Under the pieces are notes generated by a model. That model saw only the letters and a program-made list of their open reading frames with translations, was not told the DNA's origin and ran no database searches. From an uncultured Burkholderiales Genera incertae sedis bacterium (GTDB taxonomy: Bacteria > Pseudomonadota > Gammaproteobacteria > Burkholderiales > Eutrophovitaceae), in contig CAJQIK010000033.1 of the NCBI GenBank assembly GCA_905478365.1, positions 1 to 39,601 on the forward strand: DNA of 39,601 bases. Reading direction: 5' to 3'. Of the stretch, positions 659 through 27,445 are shown piece after piece. Numbering within the stretch: position 1 is the stretch's first letter; the number at the start of each line of letters is the position of its first letter. A program made the position numbers and the translations under genes.

Positions 659-1747
659 TTACTTCAGATATCCATTCTCTCGCCAAATAGCAAATTGCTC
701 TCGGAATGCCAGATAATTTTCGTAAACCCTTTTGAACTCTGGATTTACTGCCATTTCCTCTGCTGCCACTTCATCCCACGCGGCTTTAAAAGCTGCCAAA
801 AATTCAGGACCCCAATAATGTACGTTAACCCCTTGCTCGATCATTCGTGCCATTGCCGCCGGCTGAGAAAAATCTCCGAGAGCTAATCCATCACGCACTT
901 TATCGCCACAAGAAACTTCAATCACCGCTTGATGATGATCAGATAGACCATTCCAAACATCCATATTAATGAATACACCAAGAAAAGAAGCTGGTTGATG
1001 CCAACCTGGGAAGTAGTAATGTTTCGCTACCTGATACAGACCAATTCCCTCATCCATGGCCGGATTACCGAACTCAGTTGCATCAATGGTACCCAACTGC
1101 AACGCCTGGAATATTTCACCGCCAGCTAAAAGCTGCGTAGATGCGCCTAACTTTTCCATAACCTTCGCACCCAGACCAAAAAACCGCATCTTGAGACCCT
1201 TGAGATCATCAAGACTCTTGATCTCATTTTTGAACCAGCCTGAGGCCTCAGGCGGGATCATGATGCAGGGCACATACTTGATGCTGTGTTCTAAATACAA
1301 CTCATCAGCAAGCTTTTGTCCGTCCCCGTAGTAATACCATGCCAAAAATTCTGTCGCGTTAGGACCAAAAGGCAGCGTTGTAAACATGCTGAACACATTG
1401 TTGATCCCCGCATAATAACCAGAAGTAGCCCACGCCAAATCAACCGAGCCTTTAGATGCAGCTGGAATAGCTTCTAATCCAGGCACAAGCGCGTTAGGTT
1501 CAAAGAATTTTATTTCTAAACTTCCACCAGATAAGGTATCCACTGTTTCGGTCCAGTCGAGTCCACCATCACCCAGTATCGGTAACGACGACGGGAATGC
1601 GCTCGCCATCTTCAATTTAACTTTTTTGATAGGTGCGTTTGCAGGCGCTTCACCATCGGTCACCGCGACCTCATCTCCACCACCGCAACCGGTCAAAACA
1701 AATAGACCGATTACACCGGTCACCAAAAGGCCTTTAAATTTAGTCAT
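659..1747 (-). CDS. TRAP transporter substrate-binding lipoprotein DctP family, copy 2
   Basis: A 362-residue extracytoplasmic solute receptor of the TRAP (DctP) type. It has a lipoprotein signal peptide with lipobox LTGC at about residue 18-21, then the mature domain opening KVKLKMASAFPSS. The segments GGEIFQALQLGTIDATEF and the aromatic run KHYYFPGWHQ resemble the TakP-like subgroup that binds 2-oxo acids. In TakP the equivalent position reads EW rather than EF, so the ligand may differ. It is nearly collinear with copy 1 and clearly related to copy 3, indicating tandem duplication. No DctQ or DctM gene is visible next to it. The family call is firm; the ligand is unknown. Confidence 0.93.
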   Translation of the reverse strand: MTKFKGLLVTGVIGLFVLTGCGGGDEVAVTDGEAPANAPIKKVKLKMASAFPSSLPILGDGGLDWTETVDTLSGGSLEIKFFEPNALVPGLEAIPAASKGSVDLAWATSGYYAGINNVFSMFTTLPFGPNATEFLAWYYYGDGQKLADELYLEHSIKYVPCIMIPPEASGWFKNEIKSLDDLKGLKMRFFGLGAKVMEKLGASTQLLAGGEIFQALQLGTIDATEFGNPAMDEGIGLYQVAKHYYFPGWHQPASFLGVFINMDVWNGLSDHHQAVIEVSCGDKVRDGLALGDFSQPAAMARMIEQGVNVHYWGPEFLAAFKAAWDEVAAEEMAVNPEFKRVYENYLAFREQFAIWRENGYLK

Positions 1748-1941
1748 AAAACTCCTCCGAATGCACTTTTTAGTGCTTTTAATATCATGTTTTTCTAATT
1801 CTATAATGTTGGATCAAAATTTACATAAAACCCACCAAAAACCAATAGGTAAACCATCAAACGCTGATTACGAGACCCTATCACGACTCGGCCTGTCGAC
1901 CAAGAGATGGTTCATACCAAAAGGTCCGAATGGAATGGGGT

Positions 1942-3039
1942 CTACCTCAAATAGCCATTCTCCCCCCAGAGCTTGTAATCTTCTCGAAATTTTGTATAAG
2001 AGTCATGTATTTTTTTAAATTTTGGGTTCTTCGCAGACTCCTCCAAAACAACCTCATCCCAAGCTGTACGGTAAGCATTAAGAATTTCATCTGACCAATA
2101 ATGAATGGTAACCCCATGTTTTTCGACCATTCTTCGCATAGCAGGCGCTTGAGTAGCCTCACCCTCCGCAATCATCTCTTTAATGATGTAGCCACAGGAA
2201 ACCTCCACAATCTTCTGGTGATAACTCGATAGAGAATTCCATACATCCATATTGAAAAATAATCCCCCTAACGCTGTGGCTTGGTGCCAACCGGGGAAAT
2301 AATAATGCTTCGCAACCTGATAAAAACTTGAGCTCTCGTCTACCGTTGGCACGGAAAACTCGGTTGCATCAATAGTGCCCAACTGTAGCGCTTGAAAGAT
2401 ATCGCCTCCGGCAAGTAGCTGTGTCGCAACGCCTAATTTATCCATCACCTTGGCGCCTAAACCAAAGAATCGCATCTTCATACCTTTAAGGTCATCGACA
2501 GAATTGATTTCCTTCCTAAACCATCCCGACGCTTCTGGTGGCGTAATAAAGCAAGGAATTGCTTTGATATTGTGCTCCGCGTACATTTCATCAGCCAGCT
2601 CGTTTCCCCCACCGTATTGCAGCCAAGCTAACAACTCATCAGCTGAGGCGCCAAAGGGAACCGACGTAAAAAAACTGAATGCTAGATCATTGCCAGCGTA
2701 AAAACCCGAAGTCGACCAAGCAACATCTACAGACCCTTTCGATGCTGCTGGAATTGCCTCCAAAGCTGGCACTAGAGCACCAGGCTCAAAAAATTTTAAC
2801 TCTAAAGTACCCGCGGACACCTCCTCAATAGTGTCCGAAAAACGCACCCCATTCTTACCGATCAACTCGAGAGACGCCGGGAAGGCGCTGGCCATATTCA
2901 GCTTAACTTTCTGTTGCACTTTTTCATCAGCCAACCCCGATGAGTGCTGCGCTGAATCCCCATCACTATCGCCACATCCGGTCAAGATGAGTGCAGCTGC
3001 GACTGCGATTAGGTGTGACACCCAATTATCCACTCTCAT
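1942..3039 (-). CDS. TRAP transporter substrate-binding lipoprotein DctP family, copy 3
   Basis: A 365-residue paralogue of copies 1 and 2 and the first of the three in transcription order. It has a signal peptide with lipobox LTGC, an acidic linker, then the same receptor fold marked by KLNMASAFPASLEL, GWFRKEINSVDDLKGMKMRF and LAGGDIFQALQLG. It is more diverged than copies 1 and 2 are from each other: copy 2 has ATEFGNPAMDE where this one has ATEFSVPTVDE, in the region that shapes the ligand pocket of TakP-like proteins. Different ligands for the paralogues are therefore plausible. The start ATG follows GGGGAAATCA, a usable ribosome site. It sits 152 nt downstream of the epoxide hydrolase gene on the same strand. 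Confidence 0.93.
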   Translation of the reverse strand: MRVDNWVSHLIAVAAALILTGCGDSDGDSAQHSSGLADEKVQQKVKLNMASAFPASLELIGKNGVRFSDTIEEVSAGTLELKFFEPGALVPALEAIPAASKGSVDVAWSTSGFYAGNDLAFSFFTSVPFGASADELLAWLQYGGGNELADEMYAEHNIKAIPCFITPPEASGWFRKEINSVDDLKGMKMRFFGLGAKVMDKLGVATQLLAGGDIFQALQLGTIDATEFSVPTVDESSSFYQVAKHYYFPGWHQATALGGLFFNMDVWNSLSSYHQKIVEVSCGYIIKEMIAEGEATQAPAMRRMVEKHGVTIHYWSDEILNAYRTAWDEVVLEESAKNPKFKKIHDSYTKFREDYKLWGENGYLR

Positions 3040-13090: not shown

Positions 13091-13513
13091 TTACTGATTC
13101 AATCTATTCGTTTTTTTATGTGTACCGTCACAGAAAGGCTTAATTTGTGACAATCCACATCGGCACAATTTAACTTGCGTCCCTCGCCAAGTCACACCAC
13201 TGTCATCGACGATCGATACCGCTCCAGATATGTGCATCGGTCCATTTTGAATTGCAGCAACGACTACTTCACCACCCTCTTGGTTTGTAAGTTTCCCACT
13301 GACCGCGTATTTTCGCTCAAGTTGATCATGAGTATTAAAGAAAAAAGAATTGTGAGATTGGTCGCAAAACGGCGCACGATTAGTCCTGCCGCAACGACAA
13401 AATACTAATGACTCACCCGCCATATGGCGGCACGTCATCTGCTCATCAATATAAGTAAATGAACCCTTAAAGTAGAACGGCCCATCTGCGACTATCTTGA
13501 TCTCTAACATCAT
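13091..13513 (-). CDS. Dual CDGSH iron-sulfur domain protein
   Basis: About 140 residues when started at the ATG at 13511-13513, nine nucleotides past the SDR stop; the track's TTG start overlaps the SDR. Two CDGSH-type clusters are visible: FCRCGRTNRAPFCDQSH in the N-terminal half and LCRCGLSQIKPFCDGTH at the C-terminus. Each has the Cys-x-Cys...Cys...His pattern that binds a [2Fe-2S] cluster. The first has Gln instead of Gly after CD. Each half also begins with a short beta segment (VADGPFYFKGSF and IQNGPMHISGAV), as in an internally duplicated protein. It is the last gene of the benzoate operon. CDGSH proteins act in electron or cluster transfer, so a redox role in benzoyl-CoA oxidation is conceivable but unproven. 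Confidence 0.85.
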   Translation of the reverse strand: MMLEIKIVADGPFYFKGSFTYIDEQMTCRHMAGESLVFCRCGRTNRAPFCDQSHNSFFFNTHDQLERKYAVSGKLTNQEGGEVVVAAIQNGPMHISGAVSIVDDSGVTWRGTQVKLCRCGLSQIKPFCDGTHKKTNRLNQ

Positions 13514-13521
13514 TAACGTGG

Positions 13522-14304
13522 CTAGTGAGCGGTCCAACCACCGTCAATAGAATAGGAAGAACCCGTTATTGAGGATGCTTTATCAGAGGCAAGAAAAAGA
13601 GCTAGAGCAGCAATTTGATCTATCTGTACGAACTTCTGAGTTGGCTGTCGCGCCAAGATTACATCACGGATTACGTCCTCCTTGGAAATTGACTTTTCAA
13701 CCGATAAAGCATCCACTTGGCTACTAACGAGCGGCGTCTCGACCCAGCCCGGACAAATAGCGTTACAAGTAACGCCCGAATCGGCAACCTCGAGTGCTAC
13801 CGCCTTAGTAAAGCCAATTAATCCGTGCTTCGCCGCCACATAGGCAGACTTGTTGACGGAGGCGACCAGTCCGTGCGCCGAAGCAATATTAAGGATCCGT
13901 CCGAAATTATGGCTACGCATGCTCGGTATGAGTAATCGACTCATATGGAATGCTGACGATAAGTTAACAGCCAAGATAAGATCCCATTTATCAGTCGGGA
14001 AATGTTCAACCGGAGATACATGCTGAACTCCAGCATTGTTAATTAAGACATCAATAGCGCCTAACGCATCGTTAGCGCCTTTTACAAAGCGCTCAATTTC
14101 ATTAGGTTTCGCCATATCCGCATCAGAATAAAAAACCTGAGCACCAAAATTTACTTCGATATCCCGTTTGATTGCCTCAACAACTGCAGCGTCCCCCAAA
14201 CCATTTAAACCAATATCGTAACCGTTCAAGGCAAATTCCTTTGCAATTCCTAACCCAATACCTGAAGTAGAACCTGTAACCAAAACAACTTTTCTTTTAC
14301 TCAT
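13522..14304 (-). CDS. 3-hydroxybutyrate dehydrogenase-like short-chain dehydrogenase
   Basis: Started at the ATG at 14302-14304, giving 260 residues, the usual length; the track start extends 29 codons into the hydrolase gene. Classical SDR: TGSTSGIG at 10-17, NNAG at 89-92, catalytic Ser142, Tyr155 and Lys159 (YVAAKH). The segments GVQHVSPVEHFP and NIASAHGLVASVNKSAYVAAKHG are those of D-3-hydroxybutyrate dehydrogenases. It should interconvert a 3-hydroxy acid and its 3-oxo acid with NAD. It overlaps the hydrolase gene by 8 nt, so it belongs to the benzoate operon, where the substrate could be a 3-hydroxy acid from the lower pathway rather than hydroxybutyrate. The family call is strong; the substrate is inferred. 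Confidence 0.9.
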   Translation of the reverse strand: MSKRKVVLVTGSTSGIGLGIAKEFALNGYDIGLNGLGDAAVVEAIKRDIEVNFGAQVFYSDADMAKPNEIERFVKGANDALGAIDVLINNAGVQHVSPVEHFPTDKWDLILAVNLSSAFHMSRLLIPSMRSHNFGRILNIASAHGLVASVNKSAYVAAKHGLIGFTKAVALEVADSGVTCNAICPGWVETPLVSSQVDALSVEKSISKEDVIRDVILARQPTQKFVQIDQIAALALFLASDKASSITGSSYSIDGGWTAH

Positions 14305-15094
14305 ATCGATCCTCACACAAGCTGTCCTTGACAAATTGAGCAATGGCATCGATCGTAGCGCTGGCTTGGTCAAAATGCGGCGAATGCCCACAATCCTTCA
14401 AGATAACCCGCTGAGTCGGCGCGCGCGATAGCTTTTCGATAACCTCAATTTGAGCCAAAGTTCCATATGGGTCATTATCACTTTGAATAAGTAAAGACTC
14501 ACAACTGAGCTTTTCAACATACATTTGAATATCCCAATTCTTAAATTCTGGCGATAACCAAATGTCATTCCAACCCCAAAATGCAGATGCAACGTCTTCA
14601 TGGTAACGCCCTAGCTTCTTGGATAACTCTGTTGTTTCAAACGCAATACGAGCCTGCTCAATACTCTTTACCGTTAAATCTTCGACGAAAACATGAGGCG
14701 CCATCAGGACCAAGCCACCCACGTCATGTCCACCACCATTGTGAATCATAGCGATAGAAGCGCCATCGCTATGTCCAATTAGTATGGGCCTATCAACTCC
14801 TATATGTTTTAAAAAATTCGGAAGAGTATTCAACGCTTCTTGATGCATATAATCAAAAGTTCTTTTCTCGGACAACGGCGTAGACCTACCGTAGCCATAC
14901 CTAGAAAATACAAATACGCGACAACCTGTTGCTATCGCCAGTTCCTGCGGAAAGTTTTTCCATAAATCTATCGAACCTAAGCCTTCATGCAGTAAAACGA
15001 GTGCATCACTCGTAGGAATTGCGCTGTCGGATTCAATACATCGATACTCCAGCCGTTTCTCGTCAAAAACAAAATAATTATCTGTAATTTTCAT
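14297..15094 (-). CDS. Alpha/beta hydrolase of the benzoate operon
   Basis: Started at the ATG at 15092-15094 (MKITDNYFVF), with GGAAGAG about 11 nt upstream; this gives 265 residues against 291 in the track. LLHEGLGSIDLWKNFP is the oxyanion-hole strand, GHSDGA carries the nucleophile Ser, DNDPYG the acid and CGHSPHFDQ the His. It belongs to the broad lactonase/esterase group. From memory, box clusters often include a hydrolase proposed to open lactones formed from pathway semialdehydes; that is the most likely role here. It lies 37 nt downstream of livF and overlaps the SDR gene by 8 nt, supporting co-transcription. Thioesterase activity is an alternative. Confidence 0.85.
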   Translation of the reverse strand: MKITDNYFVFDEKRLEYRCIESDSAIPTSDALVLLHEGLGSIDLWKNFPQELAIATGCRVFVFSRYGYGRSTPLSEKRTFDYMHQEALNTLPNFLKHIGVDRPILIGHSDGASIAMIHNGGGHDVGGLVLMAPHVFVEDLTVKSIEQARIAFETTELSKKLGRYHEDVASAFWGWNDIWLSPEFKNWDIQMYVEKLSCESLLIQSDNDPYGTLAQIEVIEKLSRAPTQRVILKDCGHSPHFDQASATIDAIAQFVKDSLCEDRYE

Positions 15095-15131
15095 ACTTGA
15101 AGCTCTTCCAGAAAAAAATGCAATAAATACG

Positions 15132-15845
15132 TCACACTCCCAACCAGTTTTTAAGGGCTTCTGGACGTGCAATTAATTGCGATGAAATATCATTGAATAC
15201 GATCTCGCCTTTAACCATCACCACACATCGGTTTGATATTTTTGAAAGCGACTTGAAATTTTTATCTACAATCAAAGTAGAGATACCCGAAGCTTTGATA
15301 ACATCAATGATGTTCCAGATGTCTTGCGCAATAAGCGGCGCCAATCCCTCTGTAGCCTCATCCAAGATTAATAAATCCGGATTAGTAAGCAAGGCTCTAC
15401 CAATACTCAGCATCTGCTGCTCTCCCCCAGAGAGCTGTTGCCCGCCATGGGTTAGGCGTTCCTTAAGACGGGGGAAACTATCAAGCACCCGATCGTAGGT
15501 CCAGTCCATTCGGCCTTCAAACCCAGATCGCGCAGCCAAAAATAGGTTTTCTTTTACGGATAAGTTTTTGAAAATGCCCCGTCCTTCAGGGACATATGCG
15601 ATACCAGCCTTCGCAAGCAAATGAGTAGACAGCAATTTAGCGTCCTGCTCTCGAAATATAATGTCCCCAGAAGTGGCGGGGACTAATCCCAGGAGACACT
15701 TAATCAGCGTCGTTTTCCCCATTCCATTTCGCCCCATGAGCGCTATCGTTTCACCACTATTAATTTCTAAGCTGACGCCGCGAAGCACGTGACTCATCCC
15801 GTAGTGCGAGTGAAGGTCTTTAACAGTCATGAGCGCATTACTCAT
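15132..15845 (-). CDS. livF: Branched-chain-type ABC transporter ATP-binding protein LivF
   Basis: ATP-binding subunit of a HAAT-family importer, 237 residues from the ATG at 15843-15845. That ATG overlaps the livG stop by 8 nt; the track's GTG is four codons earlier. Walker A is GRNGMGKT, the signature is LSGGEQQMLSIGRALL and Walker B is LLILDEATEGL, followed by the LivF-type linker LAPLIAQDIW. With LivG, LivH, LivM and the binding lipoprotein it forms a complete importer. The neighbouring benzoate-CoA ligase makes benzoate or a related aromatic acid the likely substrate, although branched-chain amino acids cannot be excluded from sequence. Confidence 0.95.
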   Translation of the reverse strand: MSNALMTVKDLHSHYGMSHVLRGVSLEINSGETIALMGRNGMGKTTLIKCLLGLVPATSGDIIFREQDAKLLSTHLLAKAGIAYVPEGRGIFKNLSVKENLFLAARSGFEGRMDWTYDRVLDSFPRLKERLTHGGQQLSGGEQQMLSIGRALLTNPDLLILDEATEGLAPLIAQDIWNIIDVIKASGISTLIVDKNFKSLSKISNRCVVMVKGEIVFNDISSQLIARPEALKNWLGV

Positions 15846-16590
15846 CAATATCCCCACCCAAATAAGCCTCTTGAACTCGACGACTTAATCGAACGACCTC
15901 CGGTTTACCACTTTCAATAACCTCACCATTTACCATCACTGTAAGGTGATCAGCCAAGGCGAACACCGCATCCATATCATGCTCAACTAATATCATCGCA
16001 AAATCTGATCGGATATTTCTGAGTAGCTCCACCATCCTCAATGACTCCTCTGCACCCATACCAGCTAGAGGTTCGTCCAGAAGCAACACCTTTGGCTCAG
16101 TTGCTAAAGCTAAGGCGATTTCGACCTGTCGTTGTTCTCCGTGAGATAGCTCGTTTGCTTTTTTGTGGGCTAGCGAATCGAGCTGCAATCTTTGCATAAC
16201 TTGTTTAGATCTCGCTTCAACATCAGGATAAGAAGTAACGGCCCCAAAAAACCGCATGGAAATCTCTAGACGAGACTGAACAGCAATATTACAGTTCTCA
16301 AGGACACTTAAGTTCGGGTAGATATTGGTGCGCTGATAACTACGGCCCACCCCCAGAAGACTCATCTTTGTCGGCCCATAGCCTTTGACGTTTACCCCAT
16401 CAACCAATATTTGTCCATCAGTCGGTCGTAACTCTCCAGATAACAAATTAATTAAGGTGCTTTTGCCTGCACCGTTGGGGCCTATAACAGCATGAATCAT
16501 TCCGCGATCACAGGAAAGCGTTACGCTTGAAACCGCAGCTAATCCAGAAAAGTTTTTTGTTAAGCCTCGAGCTTCAATCAAAGACCCCAT
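15838..16590 (-). CDS. livG: Branched-chain-type ABC transporter ATP-binding protein LivG
   Basis: A 250-residue ATPase with Walker A GPNGAGKST near residue 37, signature LSHGEQRQVEIALAL (LSHGE rather than LSGGQ is normal in LivG), Walker B VLLLDEPLAGM and switch EHDMDAVF. The extra stretch between Walker A and signature (GVGRSYQRTNIYPNLSVLENC) is typical of LivG over LivF. It begins one nucleotide after the livM stop and overlaps livF by 8 nt. It energises uptake, presumably of an aromatic acid given the operon. Confidence 0.95.
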   Translation of the reverse strand: MGSLIEARGLTKNFSGLAAVSSVTLSCDRGMIHAVIGPNGAGKSTLINLLSGELRPTDGQILVDGVNVKGYGPTKMSLLGVGRSYQRTNIYPNLSVLENCNIAVQSRLEISMRFFGAVTSYPDVEARSKQVMQRLQLDSLAHKKANELSHGEQRQVEIALALATEPKVLLLDEPLAGMGAEESLRMVELLRNIRSDFAMILVEHDMDAVFALADHLTVMVNGEVIESGKPEVVRLSRRVQEAYLGGDIDE

Positions 16591-16591
16591 A

Positions 16592-17536
16592 TTAAGGCGC
16601 CTTTTTAAATATTTTTAATCCCACTAAGCCCTTGGGAAGAAAAAGTGCGACAAGAACAATCACGACTCCGGTCAAGAGCTGCCAATGTTTGGTCAACATC
16701 TGAAAGCCTTCCTCAACAAGCATTAGAGTTGTGGTTCCCAGGACCGGTCCGAGTACTGTCCCTTTCCCGCCGAGAATCACCATCATCAACGCGTGCCCTG
16801 ATACGTGCCAACCAACCATTTCGGGATTAACGACTCCATACTGAACAGCGGCTAAAAATCCACCTACAGCAGCAATCATGCTCGCAATCACAAAGCATAC
16901 TAATTTGAATTTGTACGTGTTGTAACCGATAGCCTTAGTCCTGTGTTCATTAACACGAATACCCGTAAGTACACGGCCAAATGGAGAGGCGATGATTCTT
17001 CTGATAACAATTAAAACCAAGAATAATAAAATCAACGTTAAATAATAAAAGTGAATCACATTTGCCAAATCCAGGTGCCACCAATCGAATAGACTAAGAT
17101 TGGGACGAACGTTTATATACATACCATCTGATCCACCGGCCAAATTCGTGTCGTGCAAAAAATAGAACAACATCTCACCAAGCGCCAATGTAGACATGAT
17201 GAAGAATATACCTTTAGTTCTTAGAACTAAGGCTCCAAATATTGCGCCAAGCACCCCAACAGATAAAATGCTGGCTAGAAACGCAACAAAGAAATTCATA
17301 GGTGAGTCTAGGGGACTTAGTATTGCTAGAACGTAACCGGAAAATCCAAAAAATGCAGCATGACCTAAGCTGACTAAACCAGTGAAACCAACTAACAAAT
17401 TTAAGCTACTGACAAAAATGATCATCACTAGAATTTTTGAGGCAAATTGAATATAAAACCGGTCACCCCAAAGTGGCAGACAAACTAAACCCAAAAGAAT
17501 TAACGCTGGTAAAACTTTTCTAAGTATCACGTTCAA
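16592..17536 (-). CDS. livM: Branched-chain-type ABC transporter permease LivM
   Basis: A 314-residue inner-membrane permease with many hydrophobic segments and the family marks LVGFTGLVSLGHAAFFG near the N-terminus and VVNPEMVGWHVSGHALMMVILGGKGTVLGP, which contains the cytoplasmic coupling loop. The start codon is TTG, directly after the livH stop. I accept it because GGGAG sits 6 nt upstream; a GTG two codons later is the only near alternative. It pairs with LivH to form the channel of the importer. Confidence 0.95.
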   Translation of the reverse strand: MNVILRKVLPALILLGLVCLPLWGDRFYIQFASKILVMIIFVSSLNLLVGFTGLVSLGHAAFFGFSGYVLAILSPLDSPMNFFVAFLASILSVGVLGAIFGALVLRTKGIFFIMSTLALGEMLFYFLHDTNLAGGSDGMYINVRPNLSLFDWWHLDLANVIHFYYLTLILLFLVLIVIRRIIASPFGRVLTGIRVNEHRTKAIGYNTYKFKLVCFVIASMIAAVGGFLAAVQYGVVNPEMVGWHVSGHALMMVILGGKGTVLGPVLGTTTLMLVEEGFQMLTKHWQLLTGVVIVLVALFLPKGLVGLKIFKKAP

Positions 17537-18433
17537 TTAATGCTCCCTACCGAATATCCCTTGAGGGCGGAACATTAATATCAAGGCCATTAGAGCAAAG
17601 ATACTCATACCGGCCATTTCTGGAAAAATATTTACGCCAAAAATATGAAGAGTCGTTACTTTTCCAAATGTATCAATTAAACCAACCAACAGCGCCGCGA
17701 CCATTGCGCCCTTTATCGAGCCTAAACCCCCGATAACAACAACGACAAAACTAACAATCAATACTTGACCACCCATACCAGGAAACACGGAGGATATCGG
17801 GGCCGATATCATTCCTGAGAACGCGGCGAGCGATACACCTAGAGCGAATATAAATCGATAAACCAATCCAATGTTTATACCCAGGGCTTTAGTCATTTCT
17901 CGATCAGATTCGCCAGCGCGAATCATCATGCCTAAACGGGTATGTTGAATACCTAAGAACATCAAAATAGCGATAACAATACAGACACTGGACAGCCAAA
18001 TTCGATACACAGGGTAGGCTAAGTTTTCAGTTAACTGAATTGATCCATCTAATAATGCTGGAATAGCAACGCTGTGCACATCATCCCCCCAAATGACACT
18101 TCTCAACTCAGAAAAAATTAGTATCAATCCGTAAGTAACCAATACTTGTTGCAAATGGTCTTTATCGTACAAAAACCTTATGAACAAGAACTCAAGGACC
18201 AAACCGAGCACAAATGCAACCACTACCCCTACAAACAAGCCTAACCAAAAATTTCCAATCCATCCCATGAATGACCAGGCCAGGTAAGCGCCAATCATAT
18301 AAAAACTGCCATGAGCAATATTGATTACACCCATGATCCCAAAAATTAATGTCAGTCCGCTTGCAACCAAAAAAAGTAGCAAACCGTATTGAATACCATT
18401 CATGGCTTGGATGAAAATTGTGACTGCGTCCAT
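17537..18433 (-). CDS. livH: Branched-chain-type ABC transporter permease LivH
   Basis: A 298-residue permease opening MDAVTIFIQAMNGIQYGLLL, with VASGLTLIFGIMGVINIAHGSFYMIGAY, the hallmark LivH segment, and VVVVIGGLGSIKGAMVAALLVGL near the C-terminus with the coupling EAA-like loop. It is multi-spanning. It follows the carboxyltransferase gene by 8 nt and abuts livM. It is part of the probable aromatic-acid importer. Confidence 0.95.
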   Translation of the reverse strand: MDAVTIFIQAMNGIQYGLLLFLVASGLTLIFGIMGVINIAHGSFYMIGAYLAWSFMGWIGNFWLGLFVGVVVAFVLGLVLEFLFIRFLYDKDHLQQVLVTYGLILIFSELRSVIWGDDVHSVAIPALLDGSIQLTENLAYPVYRIWLSSVCIVIAILMFLGIQHTRLGMMIRAGESDREMTKALGINIGLVYRFIFALGVSLAAFSGMISAPISSVFPGMGGQVLIVSFVVVVIGGLGSIKGAMVAALLVGLIDTFGKVTTLHIFGVNIFPEMAGMSIFALMALILMFRPQGIFGREH

Positions 18434-18441
18434 TCAGATTC

Positions 18442-19695
18442 CTAACTCATAACGCTCGACACGTCCTCGATAACATTATCGACGGCTTGCGCAGCAATCA
18501 ATTGCTTCACGGTTATTGTTGCATCGCCCTGCCAGCGCATAATATCGAGAGCTGCTGGTGGTAACACTCGAATTTGGCTTGTTTCCAACATACTCACCTC
18601 TGAGGCCGCTGCAGATAATGCCGCAAAAATCCCTCCTCCTGCAGCCCCTACTACAACTACATGTACATGCGTGCCACTCAAATGTTTCTCTCTCAAACAA
18701 ATTGCTAAAGCCGTAAGGTACTCCGATAACAATACACGTTCAGCACTTAGGCTAGGGGAATGACTAGAGCAATCAATGAACACTTTTATGCTTAGCACAG
18801 AACTTGGTAAAGCGTTAACCGCATACATCAAATCAAACATAGCTTCAGCATCAGCGAAATACTCAGCGACCAAAGCATAAACAGCCACTTTTTCATTTAC
18901 TTGATTTTCCGGAAAGAACAATGCGGACTTTCCAGACCAAGAGGTGTGTTGCCAGATCTTACTTGAATCAATTGAGGGATGAATGGACTGTTTGATAACT
19001 GACAGATCAGGACGGTTCAATCTCTCCTCTAATTCATTTAAAGCATCTATTTTGGAGATCCCCAAGTTTTTCTTAGTTGACAAAAAACGATGTATTTCGA
19101 ATTCATAGCCCTGTGAATTATCGTTTACTAATTGAAACCTACTCGACGTCTTGGACCGACTCTCGCCCCCCAAAATAAAGTGAAGGTCATCTCGATTTAT
19201 AAGAGCTTTTTCACCGTCTTGATTAAATGCTTGGATTAATTTTGGGCCAGACATGGAAATCTGTGAATGGGAATTCACTAAAACCATATCGCTCATCGAT
19301 GCCAACATACTGCCACCACCAAAACAGTGTCTGGTTACTAAGGACAAGACCCGAAGCCCAGCCAACTTAGCATCAAGCAAATCTTTAAAAACGAAACGAA
19401 AAGCGGCTAATCCGTTCGCGCCCTCAGTAACGCGAACCCCACCCGTGTTAAGAAGCATGACCAAAGGTAGCCCTAAGTGTTTCGCTGTCTCTATCCCCGC
19501 CCGAAGCTGCTTCGCTTCCGATACACCAATAGAACCTCCATGAACACTAAAATCAAACCCAACAATGACGGTATTGAGCATACCTCGCACGCCTCGTGCG
19601 ACACGTAAACTTCCAAAAGAGTCGCATTCGATATCCAGTAACTCATCGAAAAGTAGGTTTAATTGTTGATCTAGATCAAGTTGAGAGAAACGCAT
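18442..19695 (-). CDS. Fused malonate-decarboxylase-like carboxyltransferase (MdcD/MdcE-like), orphan in benzoate operon
   Basis: About 417 residues from the ATG at 19693-19695 (the track starts at TTG five codons earlier). Two crotonase-like halves are visible. The N-terminal half has VHGGSIGVSEAKQLRAGIETA, LLNTGGVRVTEGANG and VTRHCFGGGSMLASM followed by ISMSGPKLI, as in AccD and MdcD. The C-terminal half has VVVGAAGGGIFAALSA and the late IRVLPPAALDIM, as in MdcE. AccD's four-Cys zinc finger is absent. No biotin carrier, acyl-carrier MdcC or transferase MdcA is in the window. Family enzymes move or remove a carboxyl group from an acyl thioester. It sits between the binding lipoprotein and livH, 8 nt from livH, so it is clearly in the operon. 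The substrate is unknown; a decarboxylase or lyase for a pathway CoA ester is one guess. Confidence 0.75.
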   Translation of the reverse strand: MRFSQLDLDQQLNLLFDELLDIECDSFGSLRVARGVRGMLNTVIVGFDFSVHGGSIGVSEAKQLRAGIETAKHLGLPLVMLLNTGGVRVTEGANGLAAFRFVFKDLLDAKLAGLRVLSLVTRHCFGGGSMLASMSDMVLVNSHSQISMSGPKLIQAFNQDGEKALINRDDLHFILGGESRSKTSSRFQLVNDNSQGYEFEIHRFLSTKKNLGISKIDALNELEERLNRPDLSVIKQSIHPSIDSSKIWQHTSWSGKSALFFPENQVNEKVAVYALVAEYFADAEAMFDLMYAVNALPSSVLSIKVFIDCSSHSPSLSAERVLLSEYLTALAICLREKHLSGTHVHVVVVGAAGGGIFAALSAAASEVSMLETSQIRVLPPAALDIMRWQGDATITVKQLIAAQAVDNVIEDVSSVMS

Positions 19696-19780: not shown

Positions 19781-20962
19781 TTAAAGATCACAACCAACGG
19801 CTGGGTCCTCCAAACCTTCCCATGCCGTCCCTACCACGCTGTTAACTCCGTTGTTAACTTTGACCGTATAAAAATTTTGAATTGGGTTATGCGCTCTAGA
19901 CATTGTCCAAGGACCGCGAGGACTGTCGATTTTTGCCCCCTCCATAGCGTTAATTGCCTGAGCTTTTTTTGATAAATCACCAGATGTTTCCTGAAGAGCC
20001 TTGATCAATAATAAACCGGCATCATATCCTTGAACGGCATAAACATCAGCCTCTTCACTGTAAGCCAATCGATAGGCCTCCCGGAAGGCTAAATTTTTAG
20101 GATTTTGAAGTCCATCAGCATAATGCAGTGTCGTTGTAATGCCCTCGGCCGCATCACCCTGGGCATCGAGCACACCTTCTGTTAAAAAGCCTGACCCGTA
20201 AAGTGGAATCGAGGACTTAAGTCCCGCCGCAGCATAGTCTTTAACAAACTTAACGGCACCACCCCCAGCAAAAAAACAAGCAACTGCATCAGGTTTTAAC
20301 GCCGCCACTTCTGTGAGAATAGCCTGAAATTCAACGTTTGGAAACGGCACGAATAATTCTTTAATAACCTCACCCCCAGCGGCTTCGAACCCCTCCCTGA
20401 AAGATGCCAGCGCCTCTTCCCCTGCTCCGTATTTCCAAGTTATAAAAACGGATTTTTTGTGCCCATCCTCCACCATGATACGGCCAAGTGGGTGGGTGGG
20501 CTGCCAATTAGAAAACGATGTTCGGAATACGTTAGGGGCACACATTGTACCCGTTGCAGCGTTCGCACCAGCGTTAGGTATGATCACCAAAGATCCCGTC
20601 TCCTGCGCAACTTTTATCATACCCATCGCCACGCCAGAATGAACGGTACCAATAACGACATCAACATTATCTCGAGTCATAATCTTATTCGCATTATCAG
20701 TAGCCTTGGAAGGATTTGATTCGTCATCTACCGTGAAAAACTCAATAGATTTTCCGAATGGATTGTCCCCCAATTCTCTTAGCGCCAGTTTAAAGCCATT
20801 CTCAATTGCCATTCCAAGCTTCGCGTATGTTCCGGTGTAAGGCAGCATGAAACCCACGCGAATTGAATCAGTAGTTTTACCGCAGCCGGCCAAAGACAAA
20901 AACGATAGTCCAGCTAAAGCTGAGGTACCCGCTAAAAATTGACGACGATTACTTATGGACAT
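19781..20962 (-). CDS. ABC transporter substrate-binding lipoprotein (Peripla_BP_6), Tat-type signal
   Basis: A 393-residue receptor of the branched-chain amino acid/aromatic acid (HAAT) family. The N-terminus has a twin-arginine motif NRRQFLAG and a lipobox LAGC at about residue 24-27, so it is probably exported folded by Tat and then lipidated. The mature protein starts SIRVGFMLPYTGTYAKLG, followed by NGFKLALRELG and the typical hinge segments. The ATG follows GGGGAACAAG, a strong site. It lies 24 nt downstream of the benzoate-CoA ligase and upstream of the liv permease genes; benzoate or a relative is the expected ligand by context. Confidence 0.93.
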   Translation of the reverse strand: MSISNRRQFLAGTSALAGLSFLSLAGCGKTTDSIRVGFMLPYTGTYAKLGMAIENGFKLALRELGDNPFGKSIEFFTVDDESNPSKATDNANKIMTRDNVDVVIGTVHSGVAMGMIKVAQETGSLVIIPNAGANAATGTMCAPNVFRTSFSNWQPTHPLGRIMVEDGHKKSVFITWKYGAGEEALASFREGFEAAGGEVIKELFVPFPNVEFQAILTEVAALKPDAVACFFAGGGAVKFVKDYAAAGLKSSIPLYGSGFLTEGVLDAQGDAAEGITTTLHYADGLQNPKNLAFREAYRLAYSEEADVYAVQGYDAGLLLIKALQETSGDLSKKAQAINAMEGAKIDSPRGPWTMSRAHNPIQNFYTVKVNNGVNSVVGTAWEGLEDPAVGCDL

Positions 20963-20986: not shown

Positions 20987-22618
20987 TTACTCTGACTCGG
21001 TTCTCTGCCGTAACTTAAAACGTTGGATCTTACCCGTCGCTGTTTTTGGCAACTCACTAACAAACTCAATCCATCTCGGATATTTAAATGGCGCAAGTTT
21101 TGACTTAACATACTCTTTTAACTCGTCCTCTAAGCCAGAGGTCGCGCACGATGAGTCTACCAACACCACATACGCTCGAGGCTTTGTTAATTTATCTTCA
21201 TCTTCATCACCCACTACAGCCGCTTCAAGAACAGCGTTGTGCGACACAAGGACGCCCTCTACTTCAAATGGCGAAACGTAAAGACCACTCACCTTCAGCA
21301 TGTCGTCTGATCGTCCGCCATAAGTAAAGAATCCTTCATCATCGACACTATACTTATCTCCAGCACGGGTCCACTCGCCACAAAACGTTTCCCGAGATTT
21401 TTGTCTTTGGTTCCAGTATAAATTAGCTGCTGAAGGTCCCTTTATCTGAAGCTCCCCAAGCTCCCCAGCAGGGACATTTTGACCATCTTCATCAACTAAG
21501 CGTAGTTCGTATCCTGGCACTGGCTTGCCCGTGCTTCCGTATCGAAGATCGTCTGGGCGGTTCGATAGAAAGATGTGTAACATTTCAGTCGAGCCTATAC
21601 CGTCTAATATCTGACTACCAAAGTGTGATGTCCAACGGTTTCCGATCTCCGCCGGTAGCGCCTCTCCTGCAGAAGTAGCTACTCGAATCGCGATCTCGTC
21701 ACGGCTTGGTAAGTTGTCGTTTGCCAACATGGCTCCAAACAACGTGGGAACGCCGTAAAATATCGTGGGTTGGTGGTCTTTTAACCGCTTGAATACAGAT
21801 TCTGGTGTAGGTCTCTCAGACATCAGGACAGTTGTTGCTCCGACCGATAATGGAAATGTAAGACCATTTCCCAAACCATAGGCAAAGAATAATTTAGCCG
21901 CTGAAAAAACGATGTCCGTTTCTCTGATACCTAAAACTGGTTTAGCATACAGTTCAGCAGTGTAAGCCAAACTAGAGTGTACGTGAATTGTCCCTTTGGG
22001 GGCTCCTGTAGACCCTGAAGAATATAACCAAAAACATGTGTCGTCGCATGAAGTAATTGCAGGTTCGCACTCACCATCCGATTGGCTTTGTAGACTTTGT
22101 AAGTGGTGATGTTGGGGCGATGGTTCTCCTGAGACAATAATGTGTTCCAGATGGTTTGAATTGGCAATTGCCTCACCCAAGTTGTCAAGAAACGGGGATG
22201 CGACGATCAGAGCCTTTGCACGGCTATCCTCCATCATGAATTGATAGTCGCTTGGTGTGAGTAATGTATTCACCGCAATCGGAACGATACCAACCTTTAT
22301 CGCCCCAAGGAAAACGGCTGGGAAATCAATCGTATCCGAATGCACGATCATGACGCGATCTTCCATATTCAGCCCGAGCTTCCGTAGTGCATTACCCGAC
22401 TGGTTCACGCGTAATTTCAAGTCGTCATATGTGTAACTGCCCGAGTCATCAATATAAGCCACTTTTTCAGACCGACCGGCAAGAATGTTGCGCTCTAATA
22501 AATCATGAGCAGCATTGAATGCTCGCGGCATTGTGATGACTGGTGGGCTCGTAGAATGGTCAGACGAATAACTCTCTAACTTGGTAGACTCAATCTTTAA
22601 CACGCTTTTTCTCTTCAC
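20987..22618 (-). CDS. Benzoate-CoA ligase
   Basis: A 543-residue adenylate-forming ligase that converts benzoate, ATP and CoA to benzoyl-CoA, the entry step of the pathway. Diagnostic segments are the P-loop YSSGSTGAPKGT, AAKLFFAYGLGNGLTFP, SVGATTVLMSERPTPE and YGVPTLFGAML, all characteristic of benzoate/aryl-CoA ligases. DGIGSTEMLHIFLSN is also present, then the adenylate motif GEWTRAGDKY, the hinge GRSDDMLKVSGLYVSP and the catalytic Lys in PKTATGKIQRFKLR. The start is GTG in the track and lacks a clear ribosome site. The family's usual start falls in this region, so the true N-terminus may be a few codons downstream. It follows the flavodoxin gene by 31 nt. Confidence 0.94.
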   Translation of the reverse strand: MKRKSVLKIESTKLESYSSDHSTSPPVITMPRAFNAAHDLLERNILAGRSEKVAYIDDSGSYTYDDLKLRVNQSGNALRKLGLNMEDRVMIVHSDTIDFPAVFLGAIKVGIVPIAVNTLLTPSDYQFMMEDSRAKALIVASPFLDNLGEAIANSNHLEHIIVSGEPSPQHHHLQSLQSQSDGECEPAITSCDDTCFWLYSSGSTGAPKGTIHVHSSLAYTAELYAKPVLGIRETDIVFSAAKLFFAYGLGNGLTFPLSVGATTVLMSERPTPESVFKRLKDHQPTIFYGVPTLFGAMLANDNLPSRDEIAIRVATSAGEALPAEIGNRWTSHFGSQILDGIGSTEMLHIFLSNRPDDLRYGSTGKPVPGYELRLVDEDGQNVPAGELGELQIKGPSAANLYWNQRQKSRETFCGEWTRAGDKYSVDDEGFFTYGGRSDDMLKVSGLYVSPFEVEGVLVSHNAVLEAAVVGDEDEDKLTKPRAYVVLVDSSCATSGLEDELKEYVKSKLAPFKYPRWIEFVSELPKTATGKIQRFKLRQRTESE

Positions 22619-22649: not shown

Positions 22650-23123
22650 TCACTTGTGGGACCAGACGCTTTCACATAAGCCTAACCACTCTTGAGACCA
22701 GTCAGCCGCTTCCTCCTCTGGCATTGTTCCAGAGCTGGCATCATGCATCAGTATATCGCCTATTCGGCCTGCTCCACACGAATTTAGAAGCTCGTCAAAC
22801 CGTTTACCTCCAAAACAATACGTTTCCGCATACGTTCGATCACCCAGGGCAATGACTCCATAGCGCAGATTTTTTAGATCTGGTCTTGAGCTATCCAGAG
22901 CCTCAACAAACGATCTAGCATTATCTGGAACGTCGCCCTGCCCGTAGGTTGACGTGCAAATAAGATAAATGCAGTCCATTTCAAATATCTCAGGGGTCAA
23001 TCCGTCCATATCGACGGTCTCGACCGCGACTCCTTCACCATCGAATCTTAACTCCAACTCTTGAGCAACCAGCTGTGCATTACCAGTCATAGTACCAATC
23101 AGAATTTTGATTTGTTTCTTCAT
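22650..23123 (-). CDS. Flavodoxin (MioC-like), first gene of the leftward benzoate operon
   Basis: I start at the ATG at 23121-23123 (MKKQIKILIGTMTGNAQ), with GGAG about 13 nt upstream. This gives 157 residues, normal for a long-chain or MioC-type flavodoxin. The track's TTG start would lie inside the operator-like palindrome. FMN phosphate loop GTMTGNAQ at 10-17; second loop CTSTYGQGDVPDNA around 57-69; third loop LGDRTYAETYCFGGKRFD around 93-110, with aromatic residues to stack on FMN. It is a cytoplasmic one-electron carrier. It heads the operon with benzoate-CoA ligase in a locus lacking boxA, so it is a candidate electron donor for BoxB; that role is inferred. Confidence 0.88.
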   Translation of the reverse strand: MKKQIKILIGTMTGNAQLVAQELELRFDGEGVAVETVDMDGLTPEIFEMDCIYLICTSTYGQGDVPDNARSFVEALDSSRPDLKNLRYGVIALGDRTYAETYCFGGKRFDELLNSCGAGRIGDILMHDASSGTMPEEEAADWSQEWLGLCESVWSHK

Positions 23124-23158
23124 TTGATTCTTGCCGCTCCACAAACTAAACATAATCA

Positions 23159-23186
23159 ATATTTAGGCAATATATTACCTAAATAT
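23159..23186. promoter_or_regulatory. 28-bp near-perfect palindrome, candidate BoxR operator 1
   Basis: Arms ATATTTAGG and CCTAAATAT (9 bp each, perfect) flank CAATATATTA, whose inner AATATATT is itself palindromic; only one base pair of fourteen fails. It lies 35 nt upstream of the flavodoxin ATG, in the divergent gap with boxR. Its position and symmetry suit a dimeric XRE-type regulator. Binding by BoxR is inferred. Confidence 0.6.
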
Positions 23187-23351: not shown

Positions 23352-24287
23352 ATGCTTGAAACAGCGCATCAGAACCAAAGCGATCGCAGATCAACCCCCA
23401 GGTCAAACCCACGGGAAACGGCTAATGCAGAATTTTTAACCTTAGTTGGCTCAAGGGTCAAAAAAATTCGCAAAGAAAAAAAATTAACCAGAAAGGTTCT
23501 GTCGGAACATTCAGGAGTATCGGAGCGGTATCTTGCATTATTGGAATCTGGCCAAGGCAATGTATCCATTGCACTTTTGCGGCAAGTAGCACAGTCTCTT
23601 GATGTCGAACCAGAGATTCTTATTTCCAACTCGGCACCTGTGAACGCCGAGTCACGCCTCTTGTTAGGCTTATTGGCGGGCCTGACCAGTTCTGACAGAC
23701 ACAGGTTTAAGGACCAGCTACTGAAGGAATTACGCAACTCACCCGTGAGTCGCAGCTTTCGTATTGCTTTGATCGGACTCAGGGGAGCCGGTAAAACCAC
23801 AGTGGGTCAGAGACTCTCTAACATTTTAAATATTCCTTTCGTCGAGATCGATAGGGAAATTGAGAAGCTTGCGGATGCTCCACTATCAGAAATATTTATC
23901 ACTTATGGTCAGGAAGGCTATAGGAATTTAGAAAAAACATGCCTGGAAAATGTATTAGGTAATGGTAACAACTGCATCATTTCCACTGGCGGAAGTATTG
24001 TTCAAGACCATAAAGTGTACGACCTTCTTTTATCTACGTGCTACACCGTGTGGCTGAAGGCTTCGCCGAAAGAACATATGGATAGAGTTGTAGCGCAAGG
24101 CGACCTCAGACCCATAGCAGGAAATAACAAAGCAATGGATGAATTAAAAAATATTCTCCTCAAGCGACAGTCCGGCTACGAGAAGGCAGATTTAACCGTG
24201 ACAACGGATGGTAAGGCACCTGGCTTTATTGCCAGTCAAATACTCGCGGATCGAACGCTCAGAAAACTCATACAACACACAAACTAA
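23352..24287 (+). CDS. boxR: BoxR/BzdR-type transcriptional regulator (XRE HTH fused to shikimate-kinase-like domain)
   Basis: A 311-residue regulator. Residues 30-90 form an XRE-type helix-turn-helix (VGSRVKKIRKEKKLTRKVLSEHSGVSERY, then LESGQGNVSIALLRQVAQ). After a linker, residues 135-305 match shikimate kinase: Walker A IGLRGAGKTT at about 141-150, FVEIDREIE, FRxxE-like YRNLEKTCLE, and STGGSIV. This fusion is the signature of BzdR/BoxR, repressors of benzoate genes whose kinase-like domain senses benzoyl-CoA. The gene is divergent from the ligase operon and 18 nt upstream of boxC, so it probably represses both units until benzoyl-CoA accumulates. AGGAAAAACAAATT precedes the ATG. Confidence 0.92.
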   Translation: MLETAHQNQSDRRSTPRSNPRETANAEFLTLVGSRVKKIRKEKKLTRKVLSEHSGVSERYLALLESGQGNVSIALLRQVAQSLDVEPEILISNSAPVNAESRLLLGLLAGLTSSDRHRFKDQLLKELRNSPVSRSFRIALIGLRGAGKTTVGQRLSNILNIPFVEIDREIEKLADAPLSEIFITYGQEGYRNLEKTCLENVLGNGNNCIISTGGSIVQDHKVYDLLLSTCYTVWLKASPKEHMDRVVAQGDLRPIAGNNKAMDELKNILLKRQSGYEKADLTVTTDGKAPGFIASQILADRTLRKLIQHTN

Positions 24288-24305: not shown

Positions 24306-25988
24306 ATGCAACCATCAGTCCACACAGAAGAGTTACTCAGTACTGACAGGGTCCTGTTCGATACGCATCCAGAAGAGTATAAACATTGGGCACTTTCAAT
24401 CGAAGGAAGTACAGCAACATTAAGTATGGCAGTGAATGAAGATGAAGGCTTAAAACCCGGATATAAACTCAAACTTAACTCCTACGACTTAGGTGTCGAC
24501 ATCGAGCTCTACGACGCCATCAATCGAATCAGATTCGAACACCCAACTGTTAAATGTGTCGTAATTACTTCGGCTAAAGAGAGAATGTTTTGTTCGGGCG
24601 CCAATATTTATATGCTTGGACAGTCAAGTCATCCTTGGAAGGTTAACTTCTGTAAATTTACAAACGAAACCCGAAACGGAATTGAAGACTCAAGTAGGCA
24701 TGATGGCATTAAATTTCTCGCAGCCATCAATGGTACCGTCGCAGGGGGAGGCTACGAACTTGCTTTAGCCTGCGATAAGTTGCTCATGATTGATGATCGC
24801 TCTTCTAGCGTAAGTCTCCCAGAAGTACCGCTTTTGGGCGTTTTGCCGGGTACCGGCGGGCTCACACGAGTAATCGATAAGCGGAAAGTTAGAAGAGATC
24901 TGGCGGATGTATTCTGCTCAACAAGCGAAGGCGTTCGGGCAGAACGTGCCAAAACTTGGGGACTAGTCGATGAGATCGCCAAACCAAACGTGTTCGATGA
25001 GGCGCGAAGTGAATTAGTATCAGAATTAAGCTCTCAAAGTAACCGGCCAAAGGACGCGATCGGCGTAGAGCTGACGAAATTACATAGAACCCTAGATAAC
25101 GACGGAATACACTATTCAATAATCGACGTTGTCTTCAACAGAGCCTCACGCACGGCGTCATTCATTATAAAATCGCCACCCGCCTCAGTGTCGTCTGACA
25201 TCAATTCTATTCATAAAGAAGGATCATCCTGGTGGCCACTTGTATTTGCGCGGGAACTGGATGACGCAATATTACTATTACGAACCAACGAACTTGAGAT
25301 TGGAACTTGGATTTTCAGAACAAGCGGCAGTGTCGCAGACACCCTCCGCATGGATCGCATACTGAATGAACATCGTGAGGATTGGTTCGTAAAAGAAACG
25401 CTGGGGTACTTACGCCGCACTTTAGCTCGATTGGACGTATCGTCAAGAACGATCTTTTCACTTATCGATGAAGGTTCATGCTTCGCGGGAACCCTATTGG
25501 AGATTGCGCTCGCTTCAGACCGTATTTTTATGCTTTCCGAAACGGAGAGCGGCGATAAACCAAGTATCGCACTCTCGCCATTAAATTTTGGAAGTTTCCC
25601 GATGGTCAATCATCTTTCCAGACTAAAAAATCGTTTTTATGATCATGCCGATCAACATGAAGCGTTAATACCCCTCGAGGACCAGCTGCTGGATGCAGAA
25701 GAGGCGCTCGGCTTGGGACTAGTAACGTTCACACCTGATGACATAGATTGGGAGGACGAAATTCGTATCGCACTCGAAGAACGCATTAGTTTGTCACCCG
25801 ACGCACTCTCAGGCATGGAGGCGAACTTGAGATTTTCTGGTCCGGAAACCATGGAGACACGTATCTTTGCAAGATTGTCTGCTTGGCAAAACTGGATTTT
25901 TATTCGACCTAATGCTGTGGGTGAGGAAGGAGCACTTAAGGTTTTTGGTAGTGGAAAAAAACCGGCATTCAATTGGCAAAGAATTTAG
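24306..25988 (+). CDS. boxC: Benzoyl-CoA-dihydrodiol lyase (2,3-epoxybenzoyl-CoA dihydrolase) BoxC
   Basis: A 560-residue protein with two crotonase-fold halves, the length expected for BoxC. In the first half, YKLKLNSYDLGVDIELYDAI, ITSAKERMFCSGANIYMLG and NGTVAGGGYELALACD give the CoA-binding and oxyanion segments. PEVPLLGVLPGTGGLTRV is typical of the family. The second half includes LIDEGSCFAGTLLEIALASDRIFM. The enzyme hydrolyses 2,3-epoxybenzoyl-CoA and opens the ring, giving 3,4-dehydroadipyl-CoA semialdehyde and formate. It follows boxR by 18 nt without an obvious ribosome site (coupling is likely) and precedes boxB by 47 nt. Confidence 0.95.
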   Translation: MQPSVHTEELLSTDRVLFDTHPEEYKHWALSIEGSTATLSMAVNEDEGLKPGYKLKLNSYDLGVDIELYDAINRIRFEHPTVKCVVITSAKERMFCSGANIYMLGQSSHPWKVNFCKFTNETRNGIEDSSRHDGIKFLAAINGTVAGGGYELALACDKLLMIDDRSSSVSLPEVPLLGVLPGTGGLTRVIDKRKVRRDLADVFCSTSEGVRAERAKTWGLVDEIAKPNVFDEARSELVSELSSQSNRPKDAIGVELTKLHRTLDNDGIHYSIIDVVFNRASRTASFIIKSPPASVSSDINSIHKEGSSWWPLVFARELDDAILLLRTNELEIGTWIFRTSGSVADTLRMDRILNEHREDWFVKETLGYLRRTLARLDVSSRTIFSLIDEGSCFAGTLLEIALASDRIFMLSETESGDKPSIALSPLNFGSFPMVNHLSRLKNRFYDHADQHEALIPLEDQLLDAEEALGLGLVTFTPDDIDWEDEIRIALEERISLSPDALSGMEANLRFSGPETMETRIFARLSAWQNWIFIRPNAVGEEGALKVFGSGKKPAFNWQRI

Positions 25989-26035: not shown

Positions 26036-27445
26036 ATGAATATCAATTACAGCGACAAAATTCCCAATAATGTGAATCTGGCAAACGATAGAAAACTACA
26101 AAGAGCTTTAGAGCATTGGCAGCCGCATTTTTTAAAATGGTGGGATGAACAAGGCCCAAAAGATTTTCAATCGAACGATGTGTATTTAAGAACCGCTGTA
26201 GGGGTTGATGCGAAAGGTTGGGCTAGTTACGGACACGTGAAAATGCCTGATTACCGATGGGGAATATTTCTCGCAGATCAAATGCAGGACAGAACCATTG
26301 GCTTTGGTGATCACTTCGGCGAACCTGTTTGGCAACAAGTGCCTGGAGAATTACGATCTCAATTTCGAAGAATTATTGTGACCCAAGGTGACACCGAGCC
26401 AGCTTCTGTTGAACAGCAGAGGTTATTGGGTCTAACGTGCCCATCACTCTACGATCTTAGAAATTTATTCCAAGTTAATGTTGAGGAAGGAAGGCACCTG
26501 TGGGCAATGGTTTATCTTCTTCATTGTTACTTTGGTCGGGACGGAAGAGAAGAGGCCGAGGAACTCCTTTCCAGACATTCAGGAGATACGGATAACCCTC
26601 GCATCTTAGGGACATTCAATGAACCTATCAGTGACTGGTTATCGTTTTTTATGTTCACTTACTTCACTGACCGTGATGGTAAGTTTCAGTTGAAAAGTCT
26701 AAGCGAATCAGCCTTTGATCCGCTCGCAAGGACGTGTCGTTTTATGCTTACTGAGGAAGCGCATCATATGTTTGTTGGCGAAACTGGCGTGGGTCGTGTC
26801 ATCAAACGATGTCTCGAGGTCATGAACGAACTGGGCAGTGATGATCCGACTGGCGTTCGAGAAAACGGGGCTGTCGATCTAGTAACAATTCAAAAATATT
26901 TAAACTTCTGGTTTAGCTCCTCTCTCGATTTATTCGGCTCAGAGATCTCATCGAATGCAGCATCCTCATTCGCAAGCGGCATCAAAGGTCGACCTGACGA
27001 AGGCAGGTATGAAGATCACGTTTGTAATGATGCAACCTATGATATTGATACACCTGAGGGCACAGAGCAGGTCAACCTAAGAAATGCGATGAATGAAGTC
27101 ACTCGAGAAGCTTACGTCAAGGACTGTGAAATTGGTATTAAGCGTTGGAATATGATGATCAAAAGAGCGGGCTTTGATGTATCACTTACGTTGCCAAGTA
27201 CGAGGTTCCACAGAACGATTGGTAGCTGGGCGAACGTCCCGACAGATCCCACCGGGCAAGCCGTAAGCCGTTCGGAGTTCGACACCGGCATACCTAGCTG
27301 GTTGCCTACCGAAGAAGATAGGGCTTTCATCAGAAGCTTGATGCAACGCGTAGTCGAACCAGGAAAAATGGCTGGATGGATCGCCCCCCCTGATCGAGGT
27401 ATCAATAATAATCCGGTTGACTATGAATACGTGCGATTAAAATAA
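26036..27445 (+). CDS. boxB: Benzoyl-CoA 2,3-epoxidase, di-iron oxygenase subunit BoxB
   Basis: A 469-residue class I di-iron epoxidase that inserts one oxygen atom into benzoyl-CoA, giving the 2,3-epoxide. The six iron ligands expected from the known BoxB (recalled as E120, E150, H153, D211, E240, H243) appear here at an offset of one: Glu121, Glu151, His154 (EEGRH), Asp212, Glu241 and His244 (EEAHH). Segments YGHVKMPDYRWGIFLADQ and RVIKRCLEVMNE support the assignment. BoxB needs electrons, normally from BoxA, which is not in this window. The gene ends in a hairpin terminator 2 nt after its stop. GGAAT lies about 10 nt before the ATG. Confidence 0.95.
   Translation: MNINYSDKIPNNVNLANDRKLQRALEHWQPHFLKWWDEQGPKDFQSNDVYLRTAVGVDAKGWASYGHVKMPDYRWGIFLADQMQDRTIGFGDHFGEPVWQQVPGELRSQFRRIIVTQGDTEPASVEQQRLLGLTCPSLYDLRNLFQVNVEEGRHLWAMVYLLHCYFGRDGREEAEELLSRHSGDTDNPRILGTFNEPISDWLSFFMFTYFTDRDGKFQLKSLSESAFDPLARTCRFMLTEEAHHMFVGETGVGRVIKRCLEVMNELGSDDPTGVRENGAVDLVTIQKYLNFWFSSSLDLFGSEISSNAASSFASGIKGRPDEGRYEDHVCNDATYDIDTPEGTEQVNLRNAMNEVTREAYVKDCEIGIKRWNMMIKRAGFDVSLTLPSTRFHRTIGSWANVPTDPTGQAVSRSEFDTGIPSWLPTEEDRAFIRSLMQRVVEPGKMAGWIAPPDRGINNNPVDYEYVRLK

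Follow-up and report, generated by a model that had tools for sequence, protein, structure and literature searches.

The window, the whole 39,601-nt stretch of DNA that was analysed, contains an open reading frame (ORF) on the minus strand that starts with an ATG at position 19695, ends with a stop at position 18442 and encodes 417 amino acids (aa). The product, a fused two-domain carboxyltransferase-like protein, is called CTf here. The coordinates 18442-19695 agree with those of the original prediction; the strand, however, is the minus strand, the opposite strand being full of stops there.

The benzoate operon around CTf

CTf lies in an operon that runs in the order flavodoxin, benzoate-CoA ligase (BCL), livK, CTf, livH, livM, livG, livF, alpha/beta hydrolase, SDR and is divergent from boxR-boxC-boxB. 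It starts 85 nt after livK, and the measured gap to livH is 8 nt, as originally given. The features are:

26036-27445, plus strand: boxB, above cut-off
24306-25988, plus strand: boxC, above cut-off
23352-24287, plus strand: boxR regulator, above cut-off
22650-23159, minus strand: flavodoxin/MioC-like protein, heads the operon
20987-22618, minus strand: BCL (810 bits to TIGR02262, 642 bits to 2v7b)
19781-20962, minus strand: livK-type substrate-binding protein
18442-19695, minus strand: CTf, 417 aa plus stop
19021-19695, minus strand: CTf N half, residues 1-225, AccD/MdcD-like, expected CoA-ester site
19315-19326, minus strand: C124-F-G126-G127, oxyanion motif of the CTf N half; G126 and G127 invariant in 46 homologues
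18445-18888, minus strand: CTf C half, residues 270-417, AccA/MdcE-like
18631-18639, minus strand: G353-G354-G355, oxyanion-like motif of the CTf C half; G354 invariant in 46 homologues
17537-18433, minus strand: livH permease
16592-17536, minus strand: livM permease
15838-16590, minus strand: livG ATPase
15132-15857, minus strand: livF ATPase
14297-15172, minus strand: alpha/beta hydrolase
13522-14391, minus strand: 3-hydroxybutyrate dehydrogenase-type SDR

The proposed setting, an operon for the uptake of an aromatic acid, is confirmed by the TIGR02262 score of BCL, whose best match in the PDB is the benzoate-CoA ligase 2v7b, and by the scores of BoxC, BoxB and BoxR. In agreement with the original prediction, ORF lists and family scans revealed no genes for a biotin carrier, an acyl-carrier protein (ACP) or a CoA transferase among the ORFs of the window. 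Scans for promoters and terminators from livK to livH gave no signal above chance. At the end of the operon lies a gene for a CDGSH iron-sulphur protein (13091-13537, minus strand) that is conserved in the genus. Elsewhere in the window (659-3039, minus strand) is a tandem pair of clearly similar proteins that are lipoprotein-like and solute-binding-like.

The locus corresponds to the BoxR-regulated benzoate divergon of Betaproteobacteria, in which boxR-boxC-boxB lie opposite BCL, a hydrolase and a benzoate ABC transporter; the alpha/beta hydrolase is possibly the lactonase of those BoxR regulons (PMC6449761). Unlike that divergon, the window locus has a carboxyltransferase (CT) between livK and livH, a flavodoxin heads its operon, and the genus has neither BoxA nor BoxD over cut-off. 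In all nine genus genomes, the BoxA model (TIGR03224) scores at best ~41 bits against a cut-off of 459, and the model NF008868/PRK11903, presumably that of the BoxD aldehyde dehydrogenase, at best 123 bits against 444. The flavodoxin may serve BoxB in place of BoxA. Similar flavodoxins (51% identity) are present upstream of livK at loci L171 and L176.

Family scans and profile comparison both uphold the claim that one chain joins an MdcD/AccD-like and an MdcE-like half. The N half scores 75 bits against PRK07189/MdcD, where the curated cut-off is 228, and 47 bits against Pfam Carboxyl_trans; the C half gives sub-cut-off matches to MdcE (23 bits against 237) and AccA. When a profile of 46 CT sequences was aligned with the proteins of a true malonate decarboxylase locus, hhalign gave a probability of 99.6 for MdcD and 97.2 for MdcE. 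Like MdcACDE, CTf pairs an MdcD-like with an MdcE-like half and has the oxyanion glycines; the CTs of the window clade keep both motifs, the N-half one as CFGG or CYGG and the C-half one as GGG.

The AlphaFold model of CTf is confident (mean pLDDT 87.4, pTM 0.90). Foldseek aligned it over the full length of two-domain carboxyltransferases, with biotin-dependent enzymes as the best matches, at a TM of ~0.42 and an rmsd of ~18 A; thus, the two domains of CTf have a different relative arrangement from that in the matched single chains. Structure prediction and comparison, which the original prediction had proposed as a check, support a two-domain CT fold with this different domain placement.

Relatives of CTf and their linkage to MatB

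Orthologues of CTf are present in 8/8 other genomes of the genus, with 47-66% identity over full-length copies (one of the eight, at a contig start, is a fragment); within the reach of each contig, their operon position and neighbours are the same. This distribution, the kept position and the purifying selection described below indicate that CTf is not a chance ORF. Profile searches found a fused-CT match in 17/17 genomes of the family, and there are related fused CTs beyond it, in further families of the order. A single-sequence scan of named genomes gave no matches; a profile search of these genomes recovered Betaproteobacteria MAGs, including NorthSea_HE361-14_B37, TMED22 and UBA3031. CTf scores 569 bits across the entire profile A2, of which the window sequence is itself a part. 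It is homologous over both halves to a group defined in this analysis, the MatB-linked fused carboxyltransferases, and is 21-35% identical to the members outside the genus. In a plasmid collection, no full-length relatives of the window CT and none of the CT-MatB-MCD type were found; matches to the CT of another MatB-linked lineage were, where annotation exists, mainly annotated mdcD/mdcE pairs.

Operons with BCL, livK and livH are common in the order. Every readable locus of the genus has the CT between livK and livH, but none of the sampled BCL operons outside the genus in which both genes are readable does. Among the loci sampled, the benzoate-operon location of a fused CT is confined to this marine genus. 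Thus, the gene and benzoate ligase do not as a rule occur together, a point that the original prediction had proposed to survey, and the sampled operons do not place the CT in the enzyme set of the box pathway.

The partner outside the genus is MatB, malonyl-CoA synthetase, which adjoins the fused CT at 42/42 non-genus loci with readable flanks (counted by hand from the neighbourhood table after removal of duplicates and contig-end cases). The usual layouts are M20 hydrolase-CT-MatB after a liv transporter, CT-MatB, or CT-MatB with a classical malonyl-CoA decarboxylase (MCD, PF05292). At L080 (10108-12933) and L081 (9922-12780), a single open frame of 941 and 952 aa, respectively, spans both CT and MatB with no internal stop. 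The loci examined, whose neighbours were scanned in part, gave no recognisable biotin-carrier or carboxylase gene beside the CT. A description of CT-MatB pairs or fusions was not found in the open-access literature. At one locus (L084:13023-16954), two amidases, one FmdA-type and one AtzE-like, and a urea-type ABC binding protein come after CT-MatB; the set may form a route for a malonyl amide or ureidomalonate.

The classical MCD, beside or divergent from CT-MatB, is present at 11 of the 42 loci, where the CT would be either redundant or active on another malonyl-CoA. L086, L087, L088, L090, L093 and L038 are among the loci that have CT-MatB and the classical MCD. MatA/MCD, which occurs with MatB in malonate operons, has the same role beside MatB as that proposed for the CT, but it belongs to a different Pfam family.

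These neighbourhoods offer no support for the carboxylated aromatic substrate that was originally suggested: the readable homologues outside the genus pair with MatB rather than with benzoate ligase, and the CT-MatB fusions in two relatives also disfavour it. The possibility, also raised, that homologues would accompany a full malonate decarboxylase set holds in spirit only, as the partner is MatB and not the full set. MdcA was found in 0/17 family genomes; it lies beside a CT-family match solely in true malonate decarboxylase loci.

CTf had been described as an orphan. However, the same genome encodes MatB (G000:C91, 687 bits, over the curated cut-off), and the MatB operon of the genus is missing the CT that sister genera carry there. 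MatB scores over the cut-off in 7/9 genus genomes and is split over contigs in one more. The sister genera have the form livKHMGF-M20-CT-MatB; in the genus, six genomes have livKHMGF-M20-MatB with no CT and with an M20-MatB spacing of 55-57 nt, which leaves no room for one. CTf itself is neither adjacent nor fused to MatB, which is part of the M20 operon on a different contig. Searches for PF05292 MCD and MdcA found neither in the genus genomes. Loci L109-L114 and those of the sister genera carry the operon, with or without the CT. It lies next to ATP synthase genes at L029, and ORFs of the same size, unscanned, are found there at L109-L113. Its composition points to a malonyl amide that is taken up and hydrolysed.

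Origin and selection

The CTs of the window genus form one clade (support 100/100) on a long stem branch, and this clade groups at 100/100 with L080, L081 and L084, which belong to another family. A tree constrained to keep the CTs of the genus together with those of its own family was rejected (p-AU 0.0034), in a test with long branches and skewed composition and with a group chosen after the first tree had been seen. In addition, the inter-domain linker is 26-28 residues in 7/7 sister-genus CTs versus 58-63 in the window genus. On the AU test and the linker deletion of the sister genera, the idea that the family's own CT simply moved is rejected, although an early-splitting genus with long branches could mimic the signal against it. 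Because the tree and the independent linker deletion agree, the replacement of the family CT by a distinct CT lineage is favoured over relocation, but not proven. The window is a clean case of a gene that has changed its operon context.

CTf is under purifying selection (dN/dS 0.19-0.27). Most other operon genes have values of ~0.03-0.15 in the same comparisons, the exceptions being livG (0.24) and abH1 (0.24 in one pair and up to 0.17 elsewhere); relative to livH, livK and BCL, the CTf value is roughly 2-6 times higher. CTf is thus constrained, but less so than its neighbours, a pattern compatible with a lesser role or with adaptation to a new function.

Putative activity of CTf

The best account of these data is that CTf would decarboxylate malonyl-CoA, or a substituted malonyl-CoA, independently of biotin and ACP and in trans with MatB; confidence in this reading, from sequence and neighbourhood, is somewhat better than even. 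MatB would make malonyl-CoA or a substituted malonyl-CoA, and CTf would release CO2 from it, yielding acetyl-CoA or the acyl-CoA, respectively. The CoA ester would sit in the N half, and the two glycine-rich oxyanion motifs are predicted to meet across the domain interface and stabilise the enolate, as in MdcD-MdcE. CTf would be expressed with the benzoate genes of a BoxR-type operon, with whatever benefit such co-expression might bring, while its putative partner is encoded elsewhere, in the livKHMGF-M20-MatB operon, whose own CT has been lost. A one-piece malonyl-CoA decarboxylase is proposed because the relatives sit beside or are fused to MatB; a substituted substrate is kept as an option mainly because 11 loci carry an additional MCD. 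Counting against decarboxylation are these same 11/42 loci, the fast evolution of CTf, the separation of CTf from MatB in the genus and the replacement, described below, of two residues that matter for MdcE activity. A malonate-type decarboxylase in a benzoate operon is supported as a putative activity, and an aromatic substrate is not.

If this reading is correct, MatB and a one-chain, sometimes MatB-fused CT would constitute an apparently undescribed malonate route in Burkholderiales-type bacteria, putatively without biotin or MdcC. Since family models score these CTs below their cut-offs, the proteins are annotated as subunits of acetyl-CoA carboxylase or malonate decarboxylase, or not at all.

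The faster evolution of CTf relative to its neighbours makes a changed function possible. It is conceivable, although improbable, that the CT has been neofunctionalised in the benzoate operon and removes CO2 from a beta-carboxyl CoA ester of the aromatic catabolism of the genus. The genus-specific position in every readable genome, the evolutionary rate and the long stem branch would fit, and the sub-cut-off scores of the BoxA and BoxD models suggest that the benzoate route may be unusual. However, the genome still encodes MatB, the nearest relatives have the CT fused to it, and the box pathway is not known to involve a beta-carboxyl thioester. It is slightly less probable still that a captured CT took on a step in aromatic-acid catabolism, such as decarboxylation of an aromatic-derived malonyl-type CoA ester, in a genus without recognisable BoxA or BoxD; such a step would extend what the locus can use. 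Decarboxylation of phthaloyl-CoA was discarded as chemically implausible, since it would presumably produce an aryl anion lacking stabilisation, for which CT chemistry offers no support.

Two further readings are unlikely, to about the same degree. Most described box clusters do not encode the hydratase/isomerase step after 3,4-dehydroadipyl-CoA (PMC6449761), and the operon context would suit an isomerase, hydratase or thioesterase of the crotonase fold that acts on benzoyl-CoA intermediates and fills an unassigned box step; yet a simple crotonase would not need the full two-domain CT with both oxyanion motifs that CTf has kept, and the relatives pair with MatB. Alternatively, CTf might be a gene of little metabolic role under relaxed constraint, kept through its place in the operon. 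Its dN/dS is the highest or near-highest of the operon genes compared but well under 1, and the gene is intact in all nine genus genomes bar one contig-edge fragment, with invariant motif glycines.

Least probable, and very doubtful, is a biotin-dependent carboxyltransferase that uses a carrier encoded elsewhere, such as that of acetyl-CoA carboxylase: the Foldseek matches point this way, and the GGG of the C half is closer to the C-domain glycine pair, a motif of biotin-dependent carboxyltransferases, than to the SGG of MdcE, but no carrier or carboxylase gene was recognised in the window or beside the relatives' CT at the incompletely scanned loci examined, and the CT-MatB fusions make a consumer of malonyl-CoA more likely. 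AccD/AccA and PccB share domain order and fold with CTf; unlike them, the CT chain is short and pairs with MatB.

For the favoured reading, a one-chain decarboxylase of malonyl-CoA, the closest known systems include the biotin-independent malonate decarboxylase MdcD-MdcE, which likewise has two crotonase-type halves, both oxyanion motifs and no biotin. CTf differs in being a single fused chain without MdcA or MdcC that scores far under the NCBIfam cut-offs. MdcD-MdcE alone decarboxylates malonyl-CoA with a kcat of 2.3 per s, the oxyanion hole of the Pseudomonas enzyme is built from main-chain amides of MdcD, and MdcE residues Gln100 and Ser142 each account for a ~10-fold gain in activity (PMC5534430). 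In an alignment made via another MdcE, these two residues are replaced in CTf by His312 and Gly354, respectively; a His at position 312 is also present in many MatB-linked members.
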